Shown here in pieces: positions 35,784 to 44,730 of a stretch of DNA of 64,000 nucleotides; the stretch's first letter is position 1; each line of letters starts with the position of its first letter. Both the position numbers and the translations under genes were made by a program. The stretch comes from Solirubrobacter soli DSM 22325. Its GTDB lineage: Bacteria > Actinomycetota > Thermoleophilia > Solirubrobacterales > Solirubrobacteraceae. The DNA lies in the NCBI RefSeq assembly GCF_000423665.1, contig NZ_KE384073.1:262144-326143 (forward strand), in the 5' to 3' direction. Below the pieces are notes generated by a model. It made no database searches, was not told the DNA's origin, and was given only the letters and a program-made list of their open reading frames with translations.

Positions 35784-36898
35784 CTTCATTGGCCCCGACG
35801 TATGCCCGGTACGACGTGACCTTCGCGTCCGGTTCCGGCTGCGTGCTCGTCGACGAGGACGGCGTCGAGTACCTCGACTTCCTTTCCGGGATCGCGGTCA
35901 ACAACCTCGGGCACTGCCACCCGGCGGTGGTCAGCGTGGTGCAAGAGCAGGTCGCCCGGCTCATGCACATCTCCAATCTCTTCTACAACGCGCCCAACGT
36001 GGAATTGGCCGCCCGGTTGACGGGACGCTCGTTCGGCGAGTTCGTGTTCTTCTGCAACTCGGGGGCCGAGGCCAACGAGGCCGCGATCAAGCTCGTGCGC
36101 AAGGCACGCCCGCGCGGCGATGTGATCGTCGCCCACAACGCGTTCCACGGGCGGACGTACGGTGCGCTTTCGGCCACGCCCCAGGAGTCCAAGCAGGCGC
36201 CGTTCGCGCCGCTGGTGCCGGGCTTCATCGCGCTGCCGGCCGAGGAGATCCCGACTGCTGTGGGCGCGTCGACGGCGGCGGTGCTGATCGAGCCCGTGCA
36301 GGGCGAGTCCGGCGTGAACATCATGGATCCGGCGCTGCTGGCGTCGATCCGTTCGGCCTGCGACGCCGCTGGCGCGGCGTTGGTCTTCGACGAGGTCCAG
36401 ACCGGCATGGGGCGGACCGGCACGCTGTGGGCGTACGAGCAGGTCGGCGTCGTCCCGGACGCGATGACCTTGGCGAAGGGATTGGGCGGCGGGCTCCCGA
36501 TCGGCGCCTTGGTCATCGGGGAGAGGCTGCGCGACGTCTTCGCGCCGGGCGACCACGGCTCGACGTTCGCGGGCGGGCCGGTGGTCTCCTCGGCCGCGCT
36601 GGCCGCCCTGGACGTGATCGACGACGAGCCGTTCCTGGCGGCCGTGCGGGAACAGGGCGAGCGTCTGCTCGAAGGGCTGCGCGAGCTTCCCGGCGTCCTC
36701 TCGGCGCGCGGTCGCGGCCTGATGGTCGCGGCCGAGGTGTCCGGCGGCGCCCCTGAGCTGGCCAAGCGCGCGCTCCTGGAACAGCGGCTGATCATCAACG
36801 CGACAGGACCGACGACACTCCGGTTCCTGCCGCCGCTGATCGTCACCTCCGAGCAGGTCGACGACGCGCTCGGGCGCCTCCGCGCTCTTCTCGGTTAG
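35780..36898 (+). CDS. argD: acetylornithine aminotransferase
   Basis: 372 residues. Class III aminotransferase with FFCNSGAEANEAAIKLVRKA, LVFDEVQTGMGRTGTLWAYE and K233 in MTLAKGLGGGLPIGAL as PLP lysine. ATGA overlap with argB. Last arginine gene here: argF, argR, argG and argH, which usually follow in actinobacteria, are absent from the window. Ends about 20 bp before a hairpin. Confidence 0.97.
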   Translation: MTSLAPTYARYDVTFASGSGCVLVDEDGVEYLDFLSGIAVNNLGHCHPAVVSVVQEQVARLMHISNLFYNAPNVELAARLTGRSFGEFVFFCNSGAEANEAAIKLVRKARPRGDVIVAHNAFHGRTYGALSATPQESKQAPFAPLVPGFIALPAEEIPTAVGASTAAVLIEPVQGESGVNIMDPALLASIRSACDAAGAALVFDEVQTGMGRTGTLWAYEQVGVVPDAMTLAKGLGGGLPIGALVIGERLRDVFAPGDHGSTFAGGPVVSSAALAALDVIDDEPFLAAVREQGERLLEGLRELPGVLSARGRGLMVAAEVSGGAPELAKRALLEQRLIINATGPTTLRFLPPLIVTSEQVDDALGRLRALLG

Positions 36899-36919
36899 CC
36901 ACTCTGGTTTGAAGATCAT

Positions 36920-36940
36920 CGGGCGGCGGTATGCCGCCCG
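36920..36940 (+). terminator. perfect 8-bp hairpin after argD
   Basis: CGGGCGGC/GCCGCCCG with a GGTAT loop. It has no U-tract and it spans the upstream ATG (36931) of the next gene. It may end the arg transcript, control translation of the next gene, or both. Confidence 0.45.
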
Positions 36941-38346
36941 GTGGAGTGAAGTTCCGGACCGTGATCGTGGCGAGCGCGGCGGCCGTCGGAGTCGCGGCTC
37001 CGGCTTTCGCCCAGTTGCCCGTTCCCACCGTCCAGGCACCGGTTCCCGTCCCGACGGTGCAGGTGCCCGTGCCGACCGTGCAGGTGCCGGTCCCGACCGT
37101 GCAGGTGCCGGTCCCGACGGTGCAGGTCCCAATTCCGACCGTCCAGGTCCCCAACGTCCCGGTTCCGACCGCGGCCCCGCCGAGCGGGGGAGGAAGTGGC
37201 GGCGGTTCGCCCTCGGGCGGCGGCTCGTCCTCCGGCGGCGGCTCGTCCTCCGGCGGCGGCTCTTCGTCGGGCGGTGGCGCTTCGTCCGGCGGCTCGTCCG
37301 GCGGCGGCTCCACCTCGTCGGGCGGCTCCACCTCGTCGGGCGGCTCTTCTTCATCCGGCGGCTCGTCCTCCTCGGGCGGCTCTTCCTCGGCCGGCGGGGA
37401 CTCGTCGTCGTCCGGGTCGACCTCGGCCGCCGCGTGCTCGTCATCGAGCTGCGGCGCGTCCGCCGGCTGCTCGCCTTCGCGCGGCGCCGCCTCGTCGGCC
37501 TGCGGCAGCACGTCCTCCTCGGGAGCGTCGGCGTCCCGCGCCGGCGCGTCCGGCACCCATGCGCTGCGCTCACCCGCGCAACGCTGCGCAAACCGGCCGC
37601 GCGGCGCCACCCGGCGCGACTGCGAGCTGCGCGAGACCGTCGTTGACACCGTCCGCTGCCTCGACGACCTCTCCGGCGCGCAGCGACGCGTCCTCACGTT
37701 GCGTGCGGGCGTCGGCGCCGGACCGCCGCGCTCGCGCTCGACCGTCGCGCACCGGCTCCGGATCTCCGAGCGGCGTGTCAGCCGGCTCGAACGCACCGGC
37801 CTGCGGCGGCTGCGCACGCTCGAGCGTGCCGGCGCGTGCGCGCCGCCCGCTCCCACCCAGGTCGAGGGTGACGTCGTCGCGAGCCCGGCGCTCGCCGCCG
37901 CGACGCCGGCCGGGTCCGGATCGTCGCGGCCCGCCTCCGATCCGACCACGCGCGACCGCGGCCGCGAGCCGAAGCCGTCACCCGGCGGCATCGGCAGCCT
38001 CAACGTGCCATCGACCGGCTCGGTCGCCGGCGTCACGCAAACGCATCGGGGCGGTGGGCTCGACCTCACCCTGCCGGCGATCCTGCTCCTGCTCGCGGTG
38101 GTCGCCGTCCTCGCCGCCCGCGCGCTCCGGCGCGAGGCGACGCGGGGCGTCGCCTCGCCTGAACCGGAGGAGAGGCGGCCGGTCTGGATCCCGTGGCATC
38201 GCTCGACGATGCAGGGCCCGGGCTGGAACGACCCGCGCCCGTCGTCGGACCGGTCCGAGGAATGGTCGTCCGCGCCGGAGCCCGAGCCCGCGCCGCTCGA
38301 CGAGTGGATGCCACCGACGCGGCGGAGTCCTTCCCACCGACGCTGA
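36931..38346 (+). CDS. exported repeat protein with sigma-70 region-4-like HTH and membrane anchor
   Basis: 471 residues from ATG 36931; GTG 36946 (MKFRTVIVASAAAVGVAAPA) is an alternative that starts directly at the export signal. After cleavage near AFA-Q come about six PVPTVQ units (30-75), a Gly/Ser region of GGGSSS and SSGGS repeats (85-165) and a Ser/Ala/Cys stretch with four cysteines. Residues 231-300 match sigma-70 region 4: LSGAQRRVLTLRAG, then STVAHRLRISERRVSRLE and GLRRLRTL. A membrane helix (379-399, LTLPAILLLLAVVAVLAAR) and a Pro/Glu/Trp tail follow. If the signal works, the HTH faces outside, which is odd for a DNA-binding fold. Function unknown. Confidence 0.82.
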   Translation: MPPGGVKFRTVIVASAAAVGVAAPAFAQLPVPTVQAPVPVPTVQVPVPTVQVPVPTVQVPVPTVQVPIPTVQVPNVPVPTAAPPSGGGSGGGSPSGGGSSSGGGSSSGGGSSSGGGASSGGSSGGGSTSSGGSTSSGGSSSSGGSSSSGGSSSAGGDSSSSGSTSAAACSSSSCGASAGCSPSRGAASSACGSTSSSGASASRAGASGTHALRSPAQRCANRPRGATRRDCELRETVVDTVRCLDDLSGAQRRVLTLRAGVGAGPPRSRSTVAHRLRISERRVSRLERTGLRRLRTLERAGACAPPAPTQVEGDVVASPALAAATPAGSGSSRPASDPTTRDRGREPKPSPGGIGSLNVPSTGSVAGVTQTHRGGGLDLTLPAILLLLAVVAVLAARALRREATRGVASPEPEERRPVWIPWHRSTMQGPGWNDPRPSSDRSEEWSSAPEPEPAPLDEWMPPTRRSPSHRR

Positions 38347-38347
38347 C

Positions 38348-38412
38348 TGCATGCAAAATCGCCTCGATCGGCGTTGCACGAGCCGTCGAATCGTGATTTC
38401 GTATGCAAGATG
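38348..38412 (+). promoter_or_regulatory. repeated ATGCAARAT motif ahead of the GntR gene
   Basis: ATGCAAAAT (38351-38359, inside the palindrome TGCATGCA) and ATGCAAGAT (38403-38411) are 52 bp apart. The second overlaps the start codon of the regulator. Such paired sites are typical operators of autoregulated GntR/FCD proteins (inference). Confidence 0.4.
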
Positions 38413-39015
38413 CCGCAGCCGCGTGTACGCGATCTGCTCGAGGAGGCGATCCTCGGAGGCGAGCTGAAGCCCGGTGAGCGCTTGCGCGCGGAGGCGCTCG
38501 CGCAGCGGTTCGGGACCTCGCGGACGCCGATCCGCGAGGCGCTGTTGCAGCTCGAAGGCCAGGGGCTGGTCGAGGTCGAGCCCAACCGCGGAGCGGTCGT
38601 GCGCTCGTTCGACCGGGGCGATGTCCTCGACCTCTACGAGATCCGCGCGCTGATCGAGCCGCACGCGGCCGCGCGCGCCGCCACGCGCATCACGGCGCAG
38701 CAGATCGCGGAGCTCGCCACGCTGTGCGACGCCGAGGACCAGCTCGTCGCCAACGAGGCCTTCCACCGCATCATCCTCGAGGCGGCCCAGAGCCCGCGGC
38801 TCGTGGTCGCGATGCGCGCGGCGACCGGCATCCCACGCAGCTTCCGCACGGCGTTCTGGCACGACGAGCGCCAGCGTGCGGAGTCGCTGATGTGTCATCG
38901 GCGGCTCGTGACCGCGTTCGAGGCGCAAGACGCCCAGCTGGCCGAGGCCGTGATGCGCATGCACATCCTCGGTGCCGTCGCGTTCCTGGAGGAGACATGG
39001 CCGACGAACCACTGA
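38410..39015 (+). CDS. GntR-family (FCD) transcriptional regulator
   Basis: 201 residues from ATG 38410. Winged HTH: VRDLLEEAILGGELKPGERL, then LAQRFGTSRTPIREALLQLE and the wing VEPNRGAVVRS. The FCD effector domain (about 75-200) has the metal-site Asp/His pattern in part: DLYEIRALIEPHAA, NEAFHRIILEAA and HRRLVTAFEAQD. It is the first gene of the CoA-transferase/HyuAB unit and overlaps the next start by 19 bp, so it most likely controls this operon in response to the degraded substrate. Confidence 0.93.
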   Translation: MPQPRVRDLLEEAILGGELKPGERLRAEALAQRFGTSRTPIREALLQLEGQGLVEVEPNRGAVVRSFDRGDVLDLYEIRALIEPHAAARAATRITAQQIAELATLCDAEDQLVANEAFHRIILEAAQSPRLVVAMRAATGIPRSFRTAFWHDERQRAESLMCHRRLVTAFEAQDAQLAEAVMRMHILGAVAFLEETWPTNH

Positions 39016-40193
39016 AAGGCCTGCGGGCGATCGAGTTCGGGCAGCTGCTGGCCGGGCCGTTCACGGGCACGCTGCTGGGCGACTTCGGCGCCGACGTGAT
39101 CAAGATCGAGGCGCCCGGCGCCGGCGACGCGATGCGCGACTGGGGCCGCCTGCGCCACAACGACCGCAGCCTGTGGTGGACGATCCTGGCGCGCAACAAG
39201 CGGTCGGTGGCGTTGAACCTGCGCGAGCCGGAAGGCCAGAAGATCGCCGCCGACCTGGCCGCGAGCGCGGACATCGTCGTCGAGAACTTCCGGCCCGGCA
39301 CGATGGAGAAGTGGGGCCTCGGCCCGGAGGACGTGCACGCCCGCAACCCGCGCGCGATCTACGCCCGCGTGTCCGGCTACGGGCAGACCGGCCGGTACGC
39401 GCAGCGAGCCGGCTTCGCCTCCGCGGCCGAGGCGATCAGCGGCCTGCGCCACATCAACGGCTACCCCGGGCAGGCGCCGCCGCGGTCTGGGATCTCGCTC
39501 GGCGACACGCTCGCCGCGCAGTCCGCGTTCCAGGGCATCCTGCTCGCGCTCTTCGCGCGTGAGCGCGGGGCCGAGGGCCAGGTGGTCGACGCCGGGATCG
39601 TCGACGCCTGCTTCGCGCTCAGCGAGTCGTCGACGCTCGAGTACGAGAAGACCGGCTTCGTGCGCGAGCCGACCGGGCCGCGGCTGCCGCGGATCGCCCC
39701 GTCGAACGTCTACCTCAGCGCCGACAAGAAATGGGTCGTGATCGCCGCCAACCACGACACGCTGTGGCGACGGCTGGCGAAGATCATGGGCAAGCCCGAG
39801 CTGGGGGAGGACGAGCGCTTCGCCACCCACCACGCGCGCGGCGAGCACGAGGACCTGCTCGACGAGATCATCGGCGCGTTCGCCGCGCAGCACACGGCGG
39901 ACGAGCTCGACCGGATCATCAACGACGGCGGCGTGGTGTGCGCACCGGTCTACACCGCCAAGGACGTCTTCGAAGACCCGTACTTCCGTGAGCGCGAGCT
40001 GCTCGTGGAGCATGAGGACGAGGTGCATGGGCACGTGACCGTTCCGGGGGTCGTGCCGAAGCTGAGCCGGACGCCCGGCTCGATCCGCCAGGCCGCCCGC
40101 TGGACGGTGGGCGCCGACACGGACGCAGTGCTGGAGGAGCTCGGAGTGGACGCGGCGGAGCGCAAGCGCCTTGCCGAAAACGGCGTGATCTGA
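38997..40193 (+). CDS. family III CoA-transferase (CaiB/BaiF)
   Basis: 398 residues; ATG 38997 is preceded by GGAGGAG. Hallmarks: LKGLRAIEFGQLLAGPFTG at the start, GADVIKIEAPGAGDAMRDWG, NKRSVALNLREPEGQKI, and D170 in GISLGDTLAAQSAF, which matches the catalytic Asp169 of formyl-CoA transferase. Transfers CoA between two carboxylic acids through mixed anhydride and glutamyl- or aspartyl-CoA steps. The partners are unknown. Its place between a GntR regulator and hyuAB suggests it activates an acid produced or used in that pathway. Confidence 0.94.
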   Translation: MADEPLKGLRAIEFGQLLAGPFTGTLLGDFGADVIKIEAPGAGDAMRDWGRLRHNDRSLWWTILARNKRSVALNLREPEGQKIAADLAASADIVVENFRPGTMEKWGLGPEDVHARNPRAIYARVSGYGQTGRYAQRAGFASAAEAISGLRHINGYPGQAPPRSGISLGDTLAAQSAFQGILLALFARERGAEGQVVDAGIVDACFALSESSTLEYEKTGFVREPTGPRLPRIAPSNVYLSADKKWVVIAANHDTLWRRLAKIMGKPELGEDERFATHHARGEHEDLLDEIIGAFAAQHTADELDRIINDGGVVCAPVYTAKDVFEDPYFRERELLVEHEDEVHGHVTVPGVVPKLSRTPGSIRQAARWTVGADTDAVLEELGVDAAERKRLAENGVI

Positions 40194-40203
40194 AGGGAGC
40201 CAC

Positions 40204-42177
40204 ATGGCGTATCGGCTGGGCGTGGACGTCGGAGGGACGTTCACCGACCTGTTCCTCGTGGATGACGGCGACCATCGACAGTGGCGGGTGAAGACGCCGT
40301 CGACGCCCTCGGATCCCTCGCAGGGCGTGCTCACCGGGGTCGCGCGGATCTGTGACGCGGCCGGGATCGCCCCCGCGGAGCTCGCCAACGTCGTCCACGG
40401 GACGACCGTCGCGACCAACGCCGTGCTCGAGTCCAAGGGCGCCCGCGTCGGCCTGATCACGACCCAGGGCTTCGGCCAGATCCTGCACCTGGCCCGCTCG
40501 CAGACGCCGGGCCCGCTCGCCGGCTGGATCATCATGGTCAAGCCCGACCCGCCGGCGTCGCTCGTGGATACGCGCGAGGCCGTAGAGCGTATGGACGCGC
40601 GCGGAAATACGCTCGTCCCCGTAGATGAGCACCAGATCGCGGAGATCGTTGACGATCTCGTTGCATCCGGTGTCGAATCGTTGACGATCTCGCTCATCAA
40701 CTCCTACGTGGACGGGCGTCACGAGCAGCAGATCGCCGACATCGTCGAGCGCCTGCACCCCGCGTTCCCGGTGACGATCTCGTCCGCGGTCCTGCCGGAG
40801 TTCCGCGAGTACGAGCGGACGCTGACGGCGTGCATGAACTCATACGTGCGACCGCGTGTTGCCGCGTATGTCGACCGGCTCCAGGGTTCGCTGCACGAGC
40901 TCGGCGTGAAGTCGGAGGTCGACATCCTGCGCTCGGACGCGGGCGTGATGACGCCGGTCGAGGCGGCGCGGAACCCGGTCTACGGCGTGCTGTCCGGGCC
41001 GTCGGGCGGCGTCGCGGGCGCGTTGTACGTCGCCGCGCGGGCGGGCTTCCCGAACGTGCTCACGTTCGACATGGGCGGCACCTCGACGGATGTGAGTCTG
41101 TGTCAGTCCGGTGAGCCGACGATCGGCAGAGAGACGACGATCGGGCAGTTTCGTATCAAAGTGCCGAGCGTCGACGTGCACACCGTCGGCGCCGGCGGCG
41201 GCTCGATCGCGCACGTCCCCCAACTCACCGGGGCGCTGCGGGTCGGCCCGCAGTCGGCGGGCGCGGAGCCAGGCCCGGCCGCGTACGGCCAGGGCGGCAC
41301 CGAGCCGACCGTGACCGACGCCAACGTGGTCCTCGGCCATCTCCCGGCCGACCTGATCGGTGGGGAGATGGCGCTCGACGTCGAGGCCGCGCGCACCGCC
41401 GTGGGCACGATCGCCGACGCGATGGGACTCTCCGTCGAGGCCGCGGCGGACGGCATCCTCCGGATCGTCAACGAGAACATGGCGGGTGCGCTCCGCGTGA
41501 TCTCGGTGCAAAGAGGACACGATCCGCGCGAGTTCGCGCTTGTCGCGTTCGGCGGCGCCGGCCCGCTGCACGCCAACGCGGTGGCCGAGCTGATGGGCTC
41601 GTTCCCCGTGATCGTGCCGCCGTCACCGGGTCTTTTGTGCGCATTGGGCGACCTCGTCGCGGGATTCCGCAACGAGTTCGCGCAGACATTGATCCGTCTC
41701 ACCTCGGAGGTCGGCGACGCGTCCGCGATCCTCGCCGAGCTCGAAACCCGCGCGAGGGCTTGGATGGAGGCGCAGGGCATCGCGGCGGAGGCGCAGAACA
41801 TCGAGTTCCTCGCCGACATGCGGTACCGCGGCCAGGGCTACGAGATCCCGGTTGGGTGGGGCGAGGACCTCGACGAGCGATTCAACGCGCTGCACGAGCA
41901 GCTCTACGGCTTTCGCATGCCCAACACGGCGTCGGAGATCGTCAACCTGCGCGCCGTCGGCACCGGGGACCGGCCGGCGCCCGAGCTGCCCGAGGCCGAG
42001 CCCGTCGCATCTCAGCTCGCGGCGGGCACGTACGCCCGCGCCGAGCTCAAGCCCGGCACGACGATCGCCGGCCCGTCGATCGTCACCGAGTTCGACTCCA
42101 CCACGGTGATCCTCGAGGGCTACACCGCCGAGATCGACCGCTACTTCAACCTGCTGATCCGTCCGGAGGCTTCGTGA
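40204..42177 (+). CDS. hydantoinase/oxoprolinase family subunit A (HyuA-like)
   Basis: 657 residues. ASKHA-type ATP-binding elements: RLGVDVGGTFTDLFLVDDGD at the N-terminus, VVHGTTVATNAVLES, VLTFDMGGTSTDVSLCQSGE and AFGGAGPLHANAVAELMGSF. The family covers N-methylhydantoinase A, acetophenone and acetone carboxylase subunits and 5-oxoprolinase. It works with subunit B, whose start shares one base with this stop (TGATG). A ribosome-binding site AAGGGAG precedes the ATG. Substrate open; see the N-carbamoylsarcosine-type hydrolase three genes on. Confidence 0.93.
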   Translation: MAYRLGVDVGGTFTDLFLVDDGDHRQWRVKTPSTPSDPSQGVLTGVARICDAAGIAPAELANVVHGTTVATNAVLESKGARVGLITTQGFGQILHLARSQTPGPLAGWIIMVKPDPPASLVDTREAVERMDARGNTLVPVDEHQIAEIVDDLVASGVESLTISLINSYVDGRHEQQIADIVERLHPAFPVTISSAVLPEFREYERTLTACMNSYVRPRVAAYVDRLQGSLHELGVKSEVDILRSDAGVMTPVEAARNPVYGVLSGPSGGVAGALYVAARAGFPNVLTFDMGGTSTDVSLCQSGEPTIGRETTIGQFRIKVPSVDVHTVGAGGGSIAHVPQLTGALRVGPQSAGAEPGPAAYGQGGTEPTVTDANVVLGHLPADLIGGEMALDVEAARTAVGTIADAMGLSVEAAADGILRIVNENMAGALRVISVQRGHDPREFALVAFGGAGPLHANAVAELMGSFPVIVPPSPGLLCALGDLVAGFRNEFAQTLIRLTSEVGDASAILAELETRARAWMEAQGIAAEAQNIEFLADMRYRGQGYEIPVGWGEDLDERFNALHEQLYGFRMPNTASEIVNLRAVGTGDRPAPELPEAEPVASQLAAGTYARAELKPGTTIAGPSIVTEFDSTTVILEGYTAEIDRYFNLLIRPEAS

Positions 42178-44066
42178 TGGCCGCCCTGCCGAAGATCGCC
42201 GAGATCCCTGACATCGAGGTCGACCCGATCACGCTCGACATCATCGAGAACGCGCTCCGCCACGCGCGTTTCGAGATGGACGCGGTGCTGTTCCGCAGCG
42301 CGATGTCACCCGTCATCCGCGAGCAGCACGACGAGTTCCCGATGCTCACCGACCCCCAGGGCCGCATGGTCGTGGGCCAGTTCGGGGCCTACATCTCGGA
42401 GATGATGGCCGACTGGGACCGTGGCATCTATCCGGGCGACGTGATCCTCACGAGCGACCCGTACAAGTGCAGCGCCTCGATCTCGCACACCAACGACTGG
42501 CTCGTGCTGGTGCCGATCTTCTTCGAGGACGAGCTCGTCGGCTGGTCCTCGCAGTTCGGCCACCAGATGGACGCCGGCGGCCGGCTCCCCGGCTCGCTGC
42601 CGACGGGCGCGACGACGATCTTCGAGGAGGGGATCATCATCCCGCCGCTGAAGATCGTCGAGCGCGGCGAGGTGCAGGAGGACGTCCTCCGGCTGATCCT
42701 CAACAACGTCCGCCTGCCCGAGATGAACCGGGCGGACCTGTTCGCGATCGTCGCCGCCTGCCACGCCGGCGAGCGGCGCGTGATGGGCCTCTGCGAGCGC
42801 TTCGGCAAGGACGTCTACCTCGCCACCTTGCAAGCGCTGCTGGACCGCACCCACGAGGCGATGCGCAAGCTGATCCAGCTCGCGATCCCCGAGGAACCGC
42901 AGACCTTCGAGGACTGGATCGACGACGACGGGCTCGGCAACGGCCCCTACAAGATGAAGTTGACGATCTGGCGCGAGGGGGAGGAGGCCTGGTTCGACTG
43001 GTCCGGCACCGACCCCCAGTCGCTCGGCCCGATCAACTTCTACCTCTCCGAGGGCATGTTCAAGATGTTCATCGGGGTCTACCTGATCATGGTCAACGAC
43101 CCCGACATCCTGTTCAACGACGGCTTCTATCCGCTGCTGCACGTCGTCATGCCCGAGGGATGCCTGCTCTCGCCGCGCCACCCCGCGGCGCTGGGGTGCC
43201 GCACACACGGGCTGGCGCGGCTGTTCGACGTGCTCGGAGGAGCCCTGACCAAGCAGGCGCCGGAGCTCAACACCGCCGCCGGCTACGGCACCTCGCCCTA
43301 CATGCTGTATTCCGGTTGGAAGGACTCCGGCGAGTTCTTTTACGCGATGGAAATCCTGTACGGCGGAATTCCGGGCCGCCCGATCGGCGACGGCATGGAC
43401 GGCCACTCGTGGTGGCCGCTGTTCGAGAACATCCCGACCGAGTACCTCGAGGCCTACTACCCGCTGCGCGTCGACGGCTACACGACCGTGATCGACTCCG
43501 GCGGCGCGGGCCTGCACCGTGGCGGCAACGGCGTCGAGAAGCGCTACGTCTACCTGGAGCCGGGCCACGTCTCGATCCACGACGACCGCTGGCTCACCCG
43601 CCCCTGGGGCGTGTTGGGCGGCCAGCCCGGCGAGCGCTCGACGAAGCTGTTGCGCCGCGCCGACGGCAGTGAGCAGGTCCTGCCGGCCAAGTGCGACGAG
43701 ATCGAGGTCTCGCCCGGCGACATGCTCATCTACCGCACCGCGGGCGGCGGCGGTTGGAAGGACCGCCTCGACCGCCCGATCGAAGCCGTCGAACGCGACG
43801 TCGCGTTCGGGTTGGTCTCGGCGGAGAAGGCGCTACGCGCGTACGGCGTGGTCGTCGGCGACCCCGCGGCGACCGAGGCCGAACGCGCCCGCCAACGCGC
43901 CGAACGCGGCGACGCCGCCGCGTTCGACTTCGGCCCGCCGATCGACGAGGTCCTCGAACACTGCCTCGAGGAGACGGGCCTCCCGGCCCCGACCAAGGCG
44001 GTCCCGCTTCGCTGGTCGCCGCTCGAGTCCCGCGAATCCGCCCTCGAACGCGCCCGCCGTGGCTGA
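42177..44066 (+). CDS. hydantoinase/oxoprolinase family subunit B (HyuB-like)
   Basis: 629 residues. HyuB pattern: DPITLDIIENALRHARFEMD, SPVIREQHDEFPMLTDPQGR, ILTSDPYKCSASISHTNDW and the late GGAGLHRGGNGVEKRYVYLE with AGGGGWKDRLDR near the end. Forms the hydrolase with HyuA and couples ring opening to ATP use (family knowledge). It is about 50 residues longer than many HyuB; the extra part is a charged C-terminal tail. Overlaps the isochorismatase-like gene by 8 bp. Confidence 0.93.
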   Translation: MAALPKIAEIPDIEVDPITLDIIENALRHARFEMDAVLFRSAMSPVIREQHDEFPMLTDPQGRMVVGQFGAYISEMMADWDRGIYPGDVILTSDPYKCSASISHTNDWLVLVPIFFEDELVGWSSQFGHQMDAGGRLPGSLPTGATTIFEEGIIIPPLKIVERGEVQEDVLRLILNNVRLPEMNRADLFAIVAACHAGERRVMGLCERFGKDVYLATLQALLDRTHEAMRKLIQLAIPEEPQTFEDWIDDDGLGNGPYKMKLTIWREGEEAWFDWSGTDPQSLGPINFYLSEGMFKMFIGVYLIMVNDPDILFNDGFYPLLHVVMPEGCLLSPRHPAALGCRTHGLARLFDVLGGALTKQAPELNTAAGYGTSPYMLYSGWKDSGEFFYAMEILYGGIPGRPIGDGMDGHSWWPLFENIPTEYLEAYYPLRVDGYTTVIDSGGAGLHRGGNGVEKRYVYLEPGHVSIHDDRWLTRPWGVLGGQPGERSTKLLRRADGSEQVLPAKCDEIEVSPGDMLIYRTAGGGGWKDRLDRPIEAVERDVAFGLVSAEKALRAYGVVVGDPAATEAERARQRAERGDAAAFDFGPPIDEVLEHCLEETGLPAPTKAVPLRWSPLESRESALERARRG

Positions 44067-44730
44067 CGACCGGACCACGCCGCCCGGCTCGCCGGGCGGC
44101 GCCACCGCGGCGGGCACCGCCGCCGCGGGCGGCGGGCACTTCGGCGGCGGCGCGGGGTTCGGGGCGCGGCCCGCCGTGGTCGTCGTCGACCTCAACCTCG
44201 GCTTCACCGACCCGCGGTCGCCGCTCGCGTGCGACCTCGACGACGTGCTCATACGCACGCGTGCGTTGCTCGACGTCGCGCGGCGTATCGACGTGCCGAT
44301 CTACTTCACGACCGTCGTCTACGACGAGCTGGGGGAGGTCGCGGCCGCGGTATTCCTGCGCAAAGTGCCCGCGCTCAAGCTGTGCCGGCCGGGGACGCGG
44401 TGGGTCGAGATCGACCCGCGGCTCGGCCGCCTCTGCTCGGAGCCGGTCATCGGCAAGGCGCACGCCTCGGCGTTCTTCGGCGTCCCGTTCGCCACGATGC
44501 TCGCCGGCCGCGACACGCTGATCGTCTGCGGTGCCTCGACCTCCGGCTGCGTCCGCGCGACGGTCGTCGACGCGATGCAGCACGGATTCGCCCCGATCGT
44601 GCCACGAGAGTGCGTCGGGGATCGCTCATCTCGTGCTCATGACCAGGCCCTCTCCGACATCGAAGGCAGATACGGAGACGTGCGTAGCGTCGACGAGGTG
44701 ATCGCCGCCCTCGAGGCGCTCAAGAGATGA
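44059..44730 (+). CDS. isochorismatase-like cysteine hydrolase (N-carbamoylsarcosine amidase-like)
   Basis: 223 residues from GTG 44059. After a Gly/Ala-rich, flexible first 35 residues the fold begins ARPAVVVVDLNLGFTDPRSP. Triad: D44, K133 (VIGKAHASAFFG) and C164 (CGASTSGCVRATVVDA), with a spacing close to that of N-carbamoylsarcosine amidohydrolase. That enzyme yields sarcosine, CO2 and ammonia from the product of N-methylhydantoin hydrolysis. Being last in the hyuAB operon fits this step well, but other carbamoyl or nicotinamidase-type substrates are possible. Confidence 0.9.
   Translation: MADDRTTPPGSPGGATAAGTAAAGGGHFGGGAGFGARPAVVVVDLNLGFTDPRSPLACDLDDVLIRTRALLDVARRIDVPIYFTTVVYDELGEVAAAVFLRKVPALKLCRPGTRWVEIDPRLGRLCSEPVIGKAHASAFFGVPFATMLAGRDTLIVCGASTSGCVRATVVDAMQHGFAPIVPRECVGDRSSRAHDQALSDIEGRYGDVRSVDEVIAALEALKR

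Follow-up and report, generated by a model that had tools for sequence, protein, structure and literature searches.

The gene at 36931-38346 (+) of the window (the whole stretch of 64,000 nucleotides that was analysed) encodes a predicted exported membrane protein that contains a segment resembling region 4 of the sigma-70 factors, and the question is what such a segment might do on the outer side of the membrane. An HTH domain is usually read as a sign of gene regulation inside the cell, and a match to sigma region 4 invites the name "sigma factor". Among the papers listed by searches of the open-access literature, none deals with a secreted or exported HTH, with a sigma region 4 of that kind or with such a protein in this bacterial group.

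Architecture of the protein

The open reading frame (ORF) at 36931-38346 (+), with a product of 471 amino acids, is present as described in the first-pass annotation. Hydropathy analysis reveals a short basic N-terminus followed by a hydrophobic segment that runs through APAFA-Q, which agrees with the export signal claimed there. Judging by the sequence, the hydropathy and the comparison of the start region with relatives, residues 1-27 (36931..37011 (+)) are a predicted signal peptide, with the cut expected after AFA. Because two relatives (L013 and L014) retain GGAGTG at the position of the GTG at 36946, the true start may be this GTG instead of the ATG at 36931. The next region is a Pro/Val/Thr-rich stalk with PVPTVQ repeats (37012..37185 (+)), similar to the stalks of relatives, in which Tandem Repeats Finder detects 5.3 copies of a 21-base unit at 37041-37152 and the translation contains six [VI]PTVQ units. 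It is followed by a Gly/Ser-rich linker with four cysteines (37186..37560 (+)), where Gly/Ser-coding tandem arrays are located at 37198-37397, so that both kinds of repeats noticed earlier were recovered by the repeat search.

The sigma-70 region 4-like domain comprises residues 231-303 (37621..37839 (+)) and is supported by a PF04545 match, a family of 21 members and an AlphaFold model (see below). A spacer separates this helical segment from a C-terminal hydrophobic helix, a predicted transmembrane (TM) segment at residues 377-395 (38059..38115 (+)), with a hydropathy score of 2.57 and the basic stretch ARALRREATR after it. Residues 396-471 (38116..38343 (+)) are the predicted cytoplasmic tail, given their position after the TM helix and their basic residues; the membrane helix and the tail proposed previously are both retained in this layout. 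A crude scan of 36700-38600, with an outcome about the same as for shuffled sequence, yields no sigma-70-type promoter or terminator. An antisense ORF of 580 amino acids, partly acidic and Pro-rich, covers the whole gene at 36843-38585 (-) of the window and is probably a by-product of the high G+C content and codon choice.

Identity and fold of the region 4-like domain

A Pfam search identifies the Sigma70_r4 family (PF04545) at residues 243-295 (37657-37815 (+)), inside the domain, with an E-value of 6.1e-9 and a score of 35.7 bits compared with the curated cut-off of 24.1. This is the sole Pfam match up to E 1 in the whole protein and bears out the sigma region 4 pattern, for which a profile check had been set beforehand. 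No sigma region 2 or 3 is detected in the 14 member frames scanned with Pfam, the window protein included. The 17 NCBIfam models that match the domain stretch are all models of sigma factors, all under their whole-protein cut-offs, and a family profile made from 17 domains finds primary sigma factors as its best PDB matches (7l7b_F at E 7.8e-10). In 10 other members, PF04545 scores over the cut-off in five, below it in four and gives no match up to E 1 in one; besides these 10, L134 matches over the cut-off at 3.9e-7, and L143 has no match at E 0.01. A chance or out-of-frame resemblance is ruled out by the Pfam score and the relatives, and the presence of the same architecture at 21 loci rules out both a frameshift that shortened a sigma factor and a fusion made by misassembly.

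The modelling results are of two kinds. When the window domain is submitted to AlphaFold as a single sequence, the best model is a long helical hairpin, the other four models have pLDDT values of 49-59, and none of the 50 listed structural matches of the hairpin is titled as a sigma factor. A second run, with an alignment that contained eleven sigma-factor sequences, produced five helices with pLDDT 80-83 in all five models, and the 50 PDB matches listed for the resulting model are, by title, sigma-factor or RNA-polymerase entries (E 0.011-0.092). The best of these is the complex of WhiB1 with SigA region 4 (TM 0.75 on target, E 0.011), and none among those listed reaches E 0.001. Because the sigma-factor alignment biases the prediction toward that fold, the second model indicates compatibility with the sigma-4 fold, not independent proof of it. 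The fold check suggested in the first-pass annotation has two outcomes: the model is sigma-4-like with the sigma-factor alignment but a hairpin from the single sequence.

A family of predicted exported proteins within one order

The 100-residue domain, used as a query, has close relatives in each of the six other genomes of the genus; members from further genera of the order were added with a nine-domain profile, and the final tally, obtained with 20 domains in the profile, is 21 loci in 20 of the 232 genomes of the order, all with E <= 1.4e-24, a count that divergent members may escape, with the first 13-22 candidates scored per genome. The next matches, after a gap in E-values, are the sigma factors of four genomes at 7.5e-15 or weaker. 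The family is present in all seven genomes of the genus, in seven of genus g14, in three of genus g25 (g14 and g25 both from family f1) and in three of family f2, among which one holds two copies. The only locus in the order new to the 20-domain profile, that of G001, has the same domain as G006 but for one end residue. Among the first 13-22 candidates scored per genome with this profile, no member was found outside the order in the samples of the class (399 genomes, those of the same order included) and the phylum (231 genomes); the one further phylum match (G237, 3e-14) looks like a sigma factor. A scan of genome contigs brought one sigma factor, and viral contigs searched with the corresponding region of that sigma factor contained no relative. 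With the domain as query, no fewer than seven further proteins of the sigma-70 family are found in G000 (L002-L008).

Fourteen of the 21 frames include their N-terminus, the other seven running into the contig end; a hydrophobic segment above the threshold is found in 13 of these 14, and the one in L055, assessed by eye, is weaker. Behind the domain, 20 members have a C-terminal hydrophobic helix, and the remaining frame stops with its contig. The stalks of the relatives are rich in Pro/Val/Thr or in Gly/Ser. The linkers and the C-terminal parts differ widely among the members, and it is the domain that, by eye, can be aligned between members from two families of the order.

Members of this family differ by an exchange of the inner module. 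In genus g25, TPR repeats follow the membrane helix in L138:109-1752 and L143:2-2032, as detected with Pfam, and in L142:723-2093, as seen by eye; a SnoaL-like domain takes this position in L134:7421-8818 (+), one of the two copies of G228. The inner parts elsewhere in the family are shorter tails.

Conserved cysteine pair and topology

All 21 exported domains contain a cysteine at one alignment column, compared with 7 of 58 sigma factors (Fisher p 1.6e-13), and exactly one further cysteine is found within the next 30-80 residues in each of the 21. The two are 60 residues apart in 16 members, 59 in two and 54-55 in three. In the window protein, the pair consists of Cys243 (codon 37657..37659 (+)) and Cys303, 60 residues on (codon 37837..37839 (+)). 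Between the signal and the membrane helix there are two cysteines in 16 members, four in three, six in one and eight in the window protein, an even count in all 21 by our own reading, in which seven frames lack their N-terminal end. The genome that carries the window also encodes VKOR (E 1.5e-24), and the adjoining gene encodes a DsbA-type, thioredoxin-like protein; we take the two to be an oxidation pair. Six sigma factors of family f7 of the class (L079-L083 and L086) were seen to have a cysteine at the Cys243 column as well, with a possible partner, among those displayed, in L080 only.

Hydropathy, composition and gene content thus reveal an export signal, a TM anchor, paired cysteines and oxidation genes. 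The cysteine pair, the even cysteine counts and VKOR beside a DsbA-like protein support an oxidised extracytoplasmic domain, in which a disulfide between Cys243 and Cys303 would be expected; the protein is also predicted to be secreted, with cleavage of its signal. The position of the HTH outside the membrane, which the first-pass annotation had singled out as a puzzle, is upheld by the relatives, the paired cysteines and the TM helix with its basic tail, and we consider it very likely. Overall, the support for both the topology and the repurposing is good.

The opposite arrangement, an uncleaved signal anchor or an inverted topology that would leave the HTH in the cytoplasm, or its release inward by intramembrane proteolysis, so that it acts on transcription as a decoy, an anti-sigma binder or a regulator, appears highly improbable. 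The homology to sigma region 4 is clear, some of the old contact residues stay, and RodZ and SweD, in the relevant passages of PMC6705773, are membrane proteins that keep an HTH in the cytoplasm, but such an arrangement is difficult to reconcile with the AxA-type signal, the basic tail after the C-terminal helix, the conserved cysteine pair, the export-style Pro/Gly/Ser stalks of the relatives and the loss of the −35 and RNA-polymerase residues. Topology and the cysteine pair likewise disfavour the earlier suggestion that regulated proteolysis brings the HTH into the cell.

Residues kept and lost

The 21 exported domains were aligned with 61 region 4 sequences of sigma factors from the same searches, and the E. 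coli numbering was assigned by hand. According to passages of PMC2613000 and PMC4943231, R584, E585, R588 and Q589 read or contact the −35 element. The equivalent of R584 is found in 3 of the 21 exported domains versus 44 of the 61 sigma factors, that of E585 in none versus 46, that of R588 in five versus 58 and that of Q589 in two versus 45; all four together occur in none of the exported domains and in 41 sigma factors. The residues listed in a passage of PMC4943231 as binding core RNA polymerase are E555, R562, F563, I565, G577 and L598. The E555 equivalent is present in one exported domain versus 56 of 61 sigma factors, and that of F563 (F/Y) in none versus 60. By contrast with these losses, the equivalents of R562 (18/21), I565 (I/L/V, 20/21), G577 (G/A, 19/21) and R596 (R/K, 18/21) are kept, and so are, in all 21, that of L598 and the core columns 36 and 41; less well kept are R586 (R/K, 13/21 versus 57/61) and K593 (K/Q/R, 10/21 versus 51/61).

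Because the core columns are kept and the key contacts are replaced, promoter reading and polymerase docking look lost from these domains, with the fold apparently maintained and a general basic character remaining. Of the parts of a functional sigma factor, regions 2-3 were not detected, the full set of −35-reading residues occurs in no exported domain, and the docking residues E555 and F563 are missing in all but one domain and in all, respectively. The domain has very probably been repurposed and is no longer a part of transcription. An anti-sigma or decoy system, one of the options raised earlier, is disfavoured given that the equivalents of E585, R588, E555 and F563 are mostly gone.

The basic character is pronounced: 19 of the 21 domains are net basic (+10 in the window domain; the exceptions are L019 and L090), the mean charge of the DNA-side face is +3.5 in the exported domains versus +2.5 in the sigma factors, and the position of E585 is taken by Arg or Lys in 10 of the 21 domains and that of Q589 by Arg in nine. 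Combined with the ancestral DNA-binding fold and the mostly kept equivalents of R562, R586 and R596, these features would suit a surface DNA receptor or adhesin that binds environmental or biofilm DNA non-specifically at the membrane, for uptake or attachment. Gram-positive ComEA, a membrane-tethered, non-specific DNA binder with linkers in the passages of PMC9747964 that describe it, is a precedent, and ComEC is encoded in the same genome as the window protein. Nevertheless, ComEC is common (10 of 14 control genomes), the equivalents of R584, E585 and R588 are mostly lost, two members are not basic, and there is no competence gene among the 10 neighbours in the window or the seven scanned neighbours of relatives, so that we regard a DNA receptor as possible but doubtful. 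The proposal of the first-pass annotation that the protein binds extracellular DNA fits the net charge and the mostly retained arginines but not the base-reading residues, which are largely lost.

Origin and selection

A tree based on 65 columns only was built for 83 region 4 sequences, 21 of them exported and 62 others; a single branch sets the exported ones apart in 94% of the 200 bootstrap trees (support 93/45). A single origin of the exported family is likely, not proven, because the tree has so few columns and this support is not decisive. The neighbours of the exported sequences on this tree are three long-branch sigma factors of family f56 of the phylum, joined at 95/86. Because the profile searches against solved structures match primary sigma factors first, the comparison suggests a group 1/2 (primary) sigma factor as the source.

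Within the genus, dN is lower than dS in every pair that differs (dN 0.124 versus dS 0.613 in G006-G005, the least diverged of these pairs), and several dN/dS ratios are near 1. The latter ratios would fit a wall protein of stalk-like build in which the domain is just a rigid spacer or a folding cap, with the sigma-4 fold captured by chance and without a ligand, and the same can be said of the long low-complexity stalk, the loss of the key residues of both known binding surfaces and the wide variation of the linkers and C-terminal parts. We consider such a spacer unlikely: members from two families of the order can be aligned, by eye, in the domain and share its fixed cysteine pair, the excess of dS over dN holds in all differing pairs, and the Arg-rich face is kept in most members. 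A binder of a polyanion or a protein seems somewhat better placed than an inert spacer.

Genomic context

Upstream of the window gene are arginine genes, of which the gene for an argD-like aminotransferase ends at 36898. Downstream, at 38374-44730 (+) of the window, is a row of genes for a GntR/FCD regulator, CoA-transferase III, hydantoinases A and B and isochorismatase-type proteins. The neighbourhoods of the relatives were derived with our own crude gene caller, which often trims low-complexity N-termini. The gene is adjoined by argD in G000, G001 and G006; an ORF of 1111 amino acids lies between the two in G002, argD is not adjacent in G003, and the contigs of G004 and G005 end on the argD side. 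A GntR gene is directly downstream in four of the seven genomes of the genus (G000, G002, G005 and G006), and a row similar to that of the window follows the gene in G002, G005 and G006. The seven scanned neighbours outside the genus encode an MMPL protein, a subtilase-type protein, an ABC transporter, a ribonucleotide reductase, a GGDEF/EAL protein, a mechanosensitive channel and one protein without a family. No neighbour gene is common to all lineages. As to the orthologs beside argD that the first-pass annotation proposed to look for, argD or the GntR/catabolic genes adjoin the gene across much of the genus, and the context differs in the other lineages.

Three loci from two families have an MMPL-type gene at or near the gene for the exported HTH: in L131 (L131:8548-10740) it is directly downstream on the same strand, and in L136 (L136:3606-5762) and L139 (L139:10114-12294) other genes lie between. 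A large subtilase-type gene adjoins in three loci of g14 (L135, L136 and L140); one member each of the MMPL and subtilase clusters was identified with Pfam, and only these. In L137:2099-6208 (-), a class II ribonucleotide reductase contains a LAGLIDADG-type insert, with a match to intein splicing below the cut-off.

A putative binding module of the cell envelope

These observations are best compatible with the following scheme. Region 4 of a primary sigma factor would have been captured, probably once, and exported on a single-pass, C-terminally anchored surface protein, in which a long Pro/Val/Thr and Gly/Ser stalk extends from the N-terminus and the sigma-4 domain would lie next to the membrane. 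The Cys243-Cys303 disulfide would staple the exported domain, which has lost most of the −35-reading residues and two docking residues and kept the hydrophobic core and some of the basic contacts. The domain, small, helical and mostly basic, might then serve as a binding module of the envelope that holds a polyanion (DNA, a teichoic-type polymer or lipid head groups) or a partner protein near the membrane; in the relatives with an inner TPR array or SnoaL domain, the outer module may also report binding inwards. We lean towards this disulfide-stapled binding module, and, among the options offered by the first-pass annotation, the reuse of the domain for binding fits best. The scheme builds on the architecture, the family, the cysteine pair, the lost residues and the tree clustering as these appear at the sequence level, from which we infer a polyanion or a protein as the ligand. 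Because L019 and L090 are not net basic, a single polyanion role common to all members is uncertain.

A bolder version, in which a disulfide-locked surface receptor binds nucleic acid or another polyanion and signals via the membrane helix to the inner TPR or SnoaL modules, is rather unlikely; if it is true, the transcription machinery would have given rise to a new class of receptor on the cell surface. As a binding module, an exported family of sigma region 4 domains would show the fold redeployed in the cell envelope and would make a direct test case of the way in which an HTH acquires another ligand. It also serves as a warning that a sigma-4 match alone does not make a regulator.

Comparison with known systems

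With the primary sigma factors (RpoD/SigA), the exported protein shares the PF04545 family, the conserved core and a group 1/2-type interhelix loop; it differs from them in its predicted export, the lack of a match to regions 2-3, the presence of the cysteine pair and the replacement of the key contact residues.

The HTH domains of RodZ and SweD belong to families other than sigma-4. Like the window protein, these two are membrane proteins that possess an HTH without being transcription factors; in RodZ, as described in a passage of PMC6705773, the HTH positions a helix that contacts MreB. The HTH of RodZ and SweD, in the same passages, is intracellular, whereas that of the window protein is predicted to be outside.

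In layout, the protein resembles ComEA, which, in the passages of PMC9747964 concerned with it, is likewise a small membrane-tethered domain outside the membrane on flexible linkers. A helix-hairpin-helix domain is not found in the window protein with Pfam, where Sigma70_r4 is the only match. ComEA is a helix-hairpin-helix protein with an N-terminal anchor, whereas the window protein combines a sigma-4 HTH and a C-terminal anchor with a putative capacity for DNA binding.
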